From: Candidatus Nitrosopumilus sp.
GTDB lineage: Archaea > Thermoproteota > Nitrososphaeria > Nitrososphaerales > Nitrosopumilaceae
DNA: 64,000 nt
Direction of reading: 5' to 3'
NCBI GenBank assembly: GCA_003331425.1
Contig: QOOS01000007.1
Coordinates: forward strand, 1-64,000
The position numbers were made by a program, and so were the translations under genes. The first letter of the stretch is position 1. Each line of letters opens with the position of its first letter. Below, one piece after another: positions 40,758 to 45,132 of the stretch. A model generated the notes under the pieces. It saw only the letters and a program-made list of their open reading frames with translations, had not been told where the DNA came from and made no database searches.

Positions 40758-41666
40758 ATGACAAAAATTAAACAAAATTCTCCTGTATTGTTCTTTTACA
40801 ACAATTCTAAAAAATGGTTAATGAATATTTCAAAAAAAGAATCCTTTCACACACACATTGGGGTAATCAAACATTCTGATGCCATTGGAAAAGAATATGG
40901 CTCTAGATTGATGACTAACAAAGACAAGTACGTGTACTTGTTGGAACCTACAATGTATGATTATATTATGAAAATACAGCATGGAACTCAAATTGTATAT
41001 CCTAAAGATCTTGGATATATCGCTGCACGCGCAGGAATTAAAGATGGACAAAAAATATTGGAAATTGGAACTGGTAGCGGTTCTTTGACATCCTTTGTTG
41101 CAAGTATTGTAAAACCTCGAGGTCATGTTTACACTTTTGATGTAGATGACAAGTTCATGAAAATTGCAGAAAAAAATATCCGTAGAAGTGGTCTTTCAAA
41201 ATATGTCACTCAGCACAATTTGGATTTAAAAACATCCAAGGAAATTCCTGTTACTGAGATGGATGTTGCCTTGATTGATTTAGGTGATCCTTGGATTGTA
41301 ATTCCTAAAGTTAGACAAATGTTGAAGGGCAGTGGTGCTATATTTGCAATATGTCCAACAATGAATCAGTTAGAAAAATTAACTATGGCATTAGTTGAAA
41401 ATGAATTTACTGATATTGAATCAACAGAACATATCATTAGAACCATTGAGGCTAGAGAAGGAAAAACTAGACATTCATTTCAGGGTATTGGACATACTAC
41501 TTACTTGTGTTTTGCAAGAAAAGCATTTTTTGGAAAAACTAAAGCAAAAACAACCACTAAAGCAAAAACAACCACTAAAGCAAAAACAACCACTAAAGCA
41601 AAAACAACCACTAAAGCAAAAACAACCACTAAAGCAAAAACAACCCGAAAAAAAACAAAAAACTAG
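40758..41666 (+). CDS. trmI: tRNA (adenine-N1)-methyltransferase TrmI with Lys/Thr repeat tail
   Basis: This 302-residue protein has the TrmI N-terminal beta domain, then the class I methyltransferase core: QIVYPKDLGYIAARAGIKDGQ (~75-95), motif I LEIGTGSGSLTSF (~98-110), DVDDKFMKIAEKNI and the ALIDLGDPW motif (~172-180) in place of the usual D-x-PxPW. It methylates A57/A58 in the T-loop of tRNAs. The last ~45 residues are six TKAKTT repeats plus RKKTKN, a basic disordered tail not found in standard TrmI. Confidence 0.9.
   Translation: MTKIKQNSPVLFFYNNSKKWLMNISKKESFHTHIGVIKHSDAIGKEYGSRLMTNKDKYVYLLEPTMYDYIMKIQHGTQIVYPKDLGYIAARAGIKDGQKILEIGTGSGSLTSFVASIVKPRGHVYTFDVDDKFMKIAEKNIRRSGLSKYVTQHNLDLKTSKEIPVTEMDVALIDLGDPWIVIPKVRQMLKGSGAIFAICPTMNQLEKLTMALVENEFTDIESTEHIIRTIEAREGKTRHSFQGIGHTTYLCFARKAFFGKTKAKTTTKAKTTTKAKTTTKAKTTTKAKTTTKAKTTRKKTKN
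41538..41645 (+). repeat. 18-bp tandem repeat encoding Thr-Lys-Ala-Lys-Thr-Thr
   Basis: Six exact copies of ACTAAAGCAAAAACAACC lie in frame at the end of trmI, 21 bases before the stop codon. Copies are identical at synonymous positions. Confidence 0.95.
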
Positions 41667-44364: not shown

Positions 44365-44507
44365 TTACAAAACTCCTTTTTCATATTTTCATTAAAAGTC
44401 TCTGGTTTATTTCATTATTGTACTAAATAATATCTTAGATTCATTATGCGCATGATCTATAGTTTTTAAATTTTAGCCTTGAATTTGATCTGTATTGTAG
44501 AAAGCCC

Positions 44508-44514
44508 TTTATTA
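44508..44514 (+). promoter_or_regulatory. TATA-like box for psmB
   Basis: TTTATTA after CCC is centred 25 bases before ATG 44536, supporting that ATG over the upstream in-frame TTG at 44479. Confidence 0.4.
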
Positions 44515-44535
44515 TGTGACAAAATTATTTTAAAT

Positions 44536-45132
44536 ATGTCAATGTATATGCCAGGAGCAACTGCAGTTGGAATTACTTTTGATGGTGGTGTAGTTTTTGC
44601 AAGTGAGAAAAGGATCGCATTTGGTAATTTTCTTGTAAGTAAAACCACAAAGAAAACTTTCTCTATTACTGATAAAGTTGGTGCCACATGCGCTGGCCTT
44701 GTTGCTGATATGCAAATTTTAACTTTACAAATATCTGCTTTAGCAAAGATTAGAAAAATGGATATCAAAAGAGATGTTCCACCAAACACTGTTGCTAAAA
44801 TGATGTCAAATATGATGTATGAAAGAAGATACTTTCCATTATTGACTCAAGTAATTGTTGGTGGTGTAGTTGATAAACCAATTATGTATACTCTTGATCC
44901 TTTAGGTTCTGTATTACCTGATGACTATGCTGCAGTAGGTACTGGTGCTGAAATGGCATTGGGTGTGTTAGATCCTCAATTCAAAGAAAATATGACTAAA
45001 GATGAGGCAGTAACTCTAGCAAAACATGCAGTTCGTGCAGCATCATTAAGAGATTCTGCCAGTGGTGATGGATTAGATGTTTTAATTATCACTAAAGATG
45101 GAACTGAAGAATTTACTGAAAGTATAAAGTAA
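44536..45132 (+). CDS. psmB: proteasome subunit beta lacking the catalytic Thr1
   Basis: The 198-residue protein is a 20S proteasome beta subunit. After a short leader (MSMYMPG) the mature-type start reads Ala-Thr-Ala-Val-Gly-Ile. In catalytic archaeal beta subunits it reads Gly | Thr-Thr-Thr-Val-Gly. Aligning on Val-Gly puts Ala at position 1 and Glu at position 17 (FASEKR); Lys33 is kept. The same ATA-x-G start is, from memory, found in the second beta subunit of Sulfolobus. I infer a structural or regulatory beta subunit working beside an active one elsewhere. Start chosen from the TATA box and family length. Confidence 0.88.
   Translation: MSMYMPGATAVGITFDGGVVFASEKRIAFGNFLVSKTTKKTFSITDKVGATCAGLVADMQILTLQISALAKIRKMDIKRDVPPNTVAKMMSNMMYERRYFPLLTQVIVGGVVDKPIMYTLDPLGSVLPDDYAAVGTGAEMALGVLDPQFKENMTKDEAVTLAKHAVRAASLRDSASGDGLDVLIITKDGTEEFTESIK

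Follow-up and report, generated by a model that had tools for sequence, protein, structure and literature searches.

An Ala1-type, probably non-catalytic proteasome beta subunit of Candidatus Nitrosopumilus and its paralogue branch across the Thermoproteota

A gene of Candidatus Nitrosopumilus sp., located in the 64,000-nucleotide stretch of contig QOOS01000007.1 analysed here (the window), most probably encodes a beta subunit without catalytic function. The archaeal 20S proteasome to which it would belong has two kinds of beta subunit, and the cutting would be done by the other one, which has Thr1 and is encoded by locus L002. We assign this reading a probability of about 0.86. The window protein is of the same kind as Saci0662 of Sulfolobus acidocaldarius; the kind is already known, and the two-beta arrangement is old and widespread. 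The features of the gene are collected in Table 1.

Table 1. Features of the Ala1-type proteasome beta gene and its upstream region, with the loci of a third beta paralogue
Feature	Position in window	Strand	Remark
Non-catalytic (Ala1) proteasome beta gene	44536..45132	+	198 aa plus stop
N-terminal extension MSMYMPG	44536..44556	+	7 residues; Pro-2, Gly-1; self-cleavage removal predicted absent
Residue-1 codon GCA (Ala)	44557..44559	+	in place of catalytic Thr
Glu17 codon	44605..44607	+	catalytic-triad position
Lys33 codon	44653..44655	+	catalytic-triad position
Asp166 to Ser169 codons	45052..45063	+	second active-site network, retained
Promoter-like box GAAAGCCCTTTATTATG	44500..44516	+	TATA/BRE-like; 36 to 20 bases upstream of ATG
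Third-paralogue loci			L187, L188, L189, L190, L191, L192, L199, L202, L207, L216, L277-L279

The frame is open throughout on the plus strand, and its product (P0001) consists of 198 residues; a minus-strand reading of the same interval is full of stops and was ruled out. In profile searches the protein matches PF00227 with 163.2 bits, above the curated cut-off of 22.4, and its top NCBIfam match is the archaeal proteasome beta equivalog TIGR03634, with 204.7 bits, below the cut-off of 224. Solved archaeal beta subunits are matched with E values of about 1e-39. In T. acidophilum numbering the protein carries G-1, A1, T2, A3, V4, G5, E17, R19, K33, T129, G130, D166 and S169, which bears out the earlier note's placement of Ala at position 1 with Glu17 and Lys33 kept. 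Of the residues expected in an archaeal 20S beta subunit that cuts, Thr1 of the mature protein is thus missing, while Asp/Glu17, Lys33, Asp166 and Ser169 are all present. An AlphaFold2 model built from 28 Ala1-type sequences (mean pLDDT 86.5) adopts the proteasome beta fold; Foldseek aligned it with the T. acidophilum beta subunit (1pma) at TM scores of 0.87/0.85 and with the S. acidocaldarius structure 6z46 (Saci0613/Saci0662) at an rmsd of 1.7. The T. acidophilum subunit shares the fold as well as E17, K33, D166 and S169 with the window protein, but has Thr1. Near relatives are Nitrosopumilus, and a search of named genomes with the protein found YMPGATAVG encoded in 80/80 near-relative loci, so Ala1 is not a sequencing slip.

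The start of the protein is constrained by the same loci. In 56 of the 80, a stop codon lies at most five residues upstream of the YMPG tyrosine, so there the protein cannot start any earlier than the ATG at 44536. Among the 77 loci that have both the complete MSMYMPG start and sufficient sequence before it, the full box GAAAGCCCTTTATTATG is found at -36 in 72, and its TTTATTAT element is at -28 in 76 of them and one base closer, at -27, in the remaining locus. This spacing fits a leaderless transcript that would start at the ATG, with TTTATTAT as its putative TATA box. An alternative upstream TTG start (44479) was ruled out by the stops near the YMPG tyrosine together with the box at -28. By eye, no copy of the box was seen in the 90 bases upstream of both alpha genes and the Thr1 beta gene.

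Four PF00227 genes are present in the window genome (G000; completeness 96.6%, 1.24 Mb in 16 contigs), namely the alphas L001 and L004, the Thr1 beta L002 and the window gene. The earlier note had advised looking for a partner beta with Thr1 and had counted a genome with no other beta gene against its reading; the partner is present as L002, located on another contig and reading HG/TTTVG. The second alpha, L004, has GYDM in the N-terminal region where L001 has GYDR, a region whose YDR motif presumably plays a role in the gate. In a profile search, zero genes of the window genome reached the cut-off of TIGR01242 and three (L302-L304) passed that of TIGR01243, families that we take to represent PAN and CDC48, respectively. 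Since no PAN-type ATPase exceeds its cut-off and three of the CDC48 type are present, a CDC48-type protein probably serves as this organism's proteasomal unfoldase.

To place the window protein, we used a census of 89 Thermoproteota genomes, 28 of them selected from the window's class and 61 drawn across the phylum. A beta subunit of the window protein's branch is present in 88 of the 89; the exception, an assembly of 300 contigs that is 86% complete, yielded an alpha alone. At residue 1, the 88 branch members have Ala in 80 cases, Gly in four, Ser in two and a gap in two, for which anchoring on V-G would place Gly there; Thr never occurs. A Thr1 beta accompanies the branch member in 87 of the 88 genomes. 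The canonical Thr1 beta occurs in 86 census genomes, with Thr at position 1 in 86/86. One genome (G112) lacks it and has only a third, propeptide-less Thr1 paralogue as partner, and in another (G131) only the Ala1-type beta was found. For a tree, 111 rows were drawn from T. acidophilum and a set of 187 beta rows, no family contributing more than two rows of any one type; all 52 Ala1-type rows lie to one side of a branch whose SH-aLRT value is 99. The tree was built by a quick method on the columns after residue 5, with no bootstrap and no inferred root, and the tool warns of long rows, which include the Ala1-type L228, L139 and L219. Judged from these sequences, the Ala1 protein is a member of one ancient paralogue branch, within which the Saci0662-type protein L221 also falls. 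The earlier note had described the gene as a second beta of crenarchaeal type; the branch membership stands, while the restriction to Crenarchaeota does not, as the branch spans the phylum, ammonia oxidisers included. The Ala1 beta gene is under strong purifying selection: for 60 copies of 198 codons, drawn from 79 loci plus the window, dN/dS has a median of 0.056 and a maximum of 0.20 over the 1,203 pairs whose dS falls in the range 0.1 to 1.

The closest experimental counterpart is the proteasome of S. acidocaldarius. According to a 2015 study (PMC4569737), Saci0662 without its propeptide assembles with the alpha subunit Saci0613 into an inert 28-mer, and Saci0909 by itself forms no stable complex with alpha. 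Upon three-way expression, Saci0909 enters at a lower ratio and confers activity, and all three proteins were co-purified; the authors describe Saci0662 as seemingly inert, with Saci0909 interspersed in the beta ring. The study reports equivalent threonines in both beta subunits. By our alignment, the Thr of the Saci0662 type is Thr2, not residue 1, which is the likely molecular reason for its inertness. Chain H of PDB 6z46 (titled Saci0613/Saci0662) is near-identical to L221 from Thr2 onwards, Thr2 being chain residue 2, and this numbering suggests that the Saci0662 construct starts with Met-Thr2. The two systems share the paralogue branch, a non-Thr residue 1 followed by Thr2, and an additional, Thr1-bearing beta gene. 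They differ in that Sulfolobus has one alpha and the window genome two, in the residues before position 1 (Pro-1 in L221, Pro-2 and Gly-1 in the window protein), and in the Thr1 partner, which carries Asn166 in the window genome and Asp166 in the family of L221 (f27).

By analogy with this orthologue, the same division of roles would apply in the window organism. The Ala1 protein would fold as a normal beta subunit, dock on the alpha ring and build the beta ring, lacking a nucleophile because residue 1 is Ala; L002 would insert in the same particle and do the cutting. The mixed 20S core that the earlier note had proposed, with active and inactive beta rings, finds support only by homology, in the Saci0662/Saci0909 system (PMC4569737). 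As no self-cleavage is expected where Thr1 is missing, the MSMYMPG tail would probably stay attached and make a tight turn at Gly-1/Ala1 within the subunit's own dead site. Yeast beta subunits with a T1A mutation offer a parallel: as described in PMC4792962, they show neither autolysis nor activity and carry propeptide remnants, and Gly-1 and Ala1 take one position in the mutants compared. These mutants resemble the window protein in having Ala1 after Gly-1 with the remaining active-site residues intact, and the lack of self-cleavage and activity demonstrated there is predicted here. Unlike the engineered mutants, the window type is natural, ancient and fixed, its tail has only about seven residues, and a small residue occupies position 1 throughout its branch. 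In our literature search, largely confined to openly available papers, neither a report of a thaumarchaeal Ala1 beta nor an experiment on the window organism came up.

Other readings of the gene account for parts of these data. Cleavage between Ala1 and Thr2 would make Thr2 the nucleophile, shifted by one residue; the earlier note had likewise pointed to processing before this Thr as evidence against an inactive subunit. Thr2 is indeed found in 88/88 branch members, alongside an otherwise retained active site, but it is just as invariant in the live subunits (86/86), so its conservation is not specific. Moreover, the Sulfolobus orthologue truncated to start at this Thr was inert with alpha alone (PMC4569737), and chain H of 6z46 matches from the same residue. 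Gly-1, kept in 83 of the 88 branch members, places the old cut site before Ala and likewise speaks against Thr2, and we consider this reading very unlikely. It is also unlikely, if slightly less so, that Ala1 and Thr1 subunits occupy separate particles, one inert and one active, with the inert one serving as a decoy or storage form. The assembly of the Sulfolobus Ala1-type subunit with alpha alone is compatible with such a separation, and the two alpha genes of the window genome could pair differently; in Sulfolobus, however, where there is only one alpha, a stable complex of the Thr1 beta with it did not form unless the Ala1 type was present, and the three subunits purified together (PMC4569737).

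The missing catalytic residue might also mark a degenerating duplicate without function. We rejected gene decay on the median dN/dS of 0.056, and the identical site in the near relatives, the conserved promoter box and the presence of the branch in nearly every census genome leave this reading a negligible probability. The non-catalytic beta subunit of a mixed proteasome is the reading that we retain.

The distribution of active-site residues between the two subunits raises a question: apart from residue 1, the dead subunit has lost none of its active-site residues, while the live subunit of the window's order no longer has Asp166. Among the census members of the dead branch, Lys33, Asp166 and Gly130 are each present in 88/88 and Ser169 in 86/88, with Pro-2 in 61/88; only 22 of 20,000 random column triples are jointly as conserved as columns 33, 166 and 169. 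Such retention would be unnecessary in a purely passive scaffold, and the empty site may therefore keep some role. In the window's order, Asn166 and Thr169 occur together in the Thr1 beta of 20/20 census genomes, and Asn166 recurs in 25/25 further genomes of the order (23 by script, L325 and L326 by eye), hence in all 45 examined (L002 and the Thr1 betas of families f1-f4). Outside the order, Thr1 betas have Asp166 in 64/66. In PMC4792962, D166N is described as lowering yeast beta5 activity, and D166A is recounted as stopping autolysis of an archaeal core. Thr169 possibly compensates for the loss, as might, in certain relatives, the third beta type, which has Asp166 in 13/13 members and is absent from the four PF00227 genes of the window genome. 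We tentatively raise the rather doubtful idea that the two betas of ammonia oxidisers divide active-site chemistry in an unusual manner, the proteasome being deliberately damped or partner-dependent, not simply diluted. The Ala1 beta, which keeps Lys33, Asp166 and Ser169 and whose dead site would be plugged by uncleaved Pro-Gly-Ala, might then take part in peptide binding or in the gating or regulation of the chamber, and the genome's only cutting subunit would be the one with Asn166/Thr169.

Proteasomes with non-cutting beta subunits have been thought a eukaryotic trait, and in the literature that we found, experimental proof of an archaeal counterpart comes from one Sulfolobus species. The census indicates that members of the phylum, among them the ammonia oxidisers, as a rule carry a gene for a dedicated non-cutting beta. 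The eukaryotic non-catalytic subunits are beta3, beta4, beta6 and beta7. They resemble the Ala1 type as non-cutting members of a mixed beta ring, a likeness for which we claim no shared descent; the eukaryotic ring differs in being built from seven distinct genes in fixed positions.

Several further observations were made among the collected loci. Two members of the dead branch from one family (L229 and L231) have Ser at position 1 after Pro-1, and this Ser1 could in principle act as a nucleophile. A sequence with 92% identity to the window protein (L061) stands in a record titled Phycisphaerae bacterium, probably a wrongly binned Nitrosopumilus contig. The third beta paralogue, in which Met mostly directly precedes Thr1 so that there is no propeptide, occurs in 13 of the 89 genomes. 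At two of its loci (L187 and L199) it is adjoined by an alpha-like gene with VDSA/VDRA replacing VEYA, and the two genes perhaps form a second, separate alpha/beta pair. Elsewhere in the window, the open reading frame at 40758-41666, whose product we take to be methyltransferase-like, ends in a C-terminal tail of tandem KAKTTT repeats.
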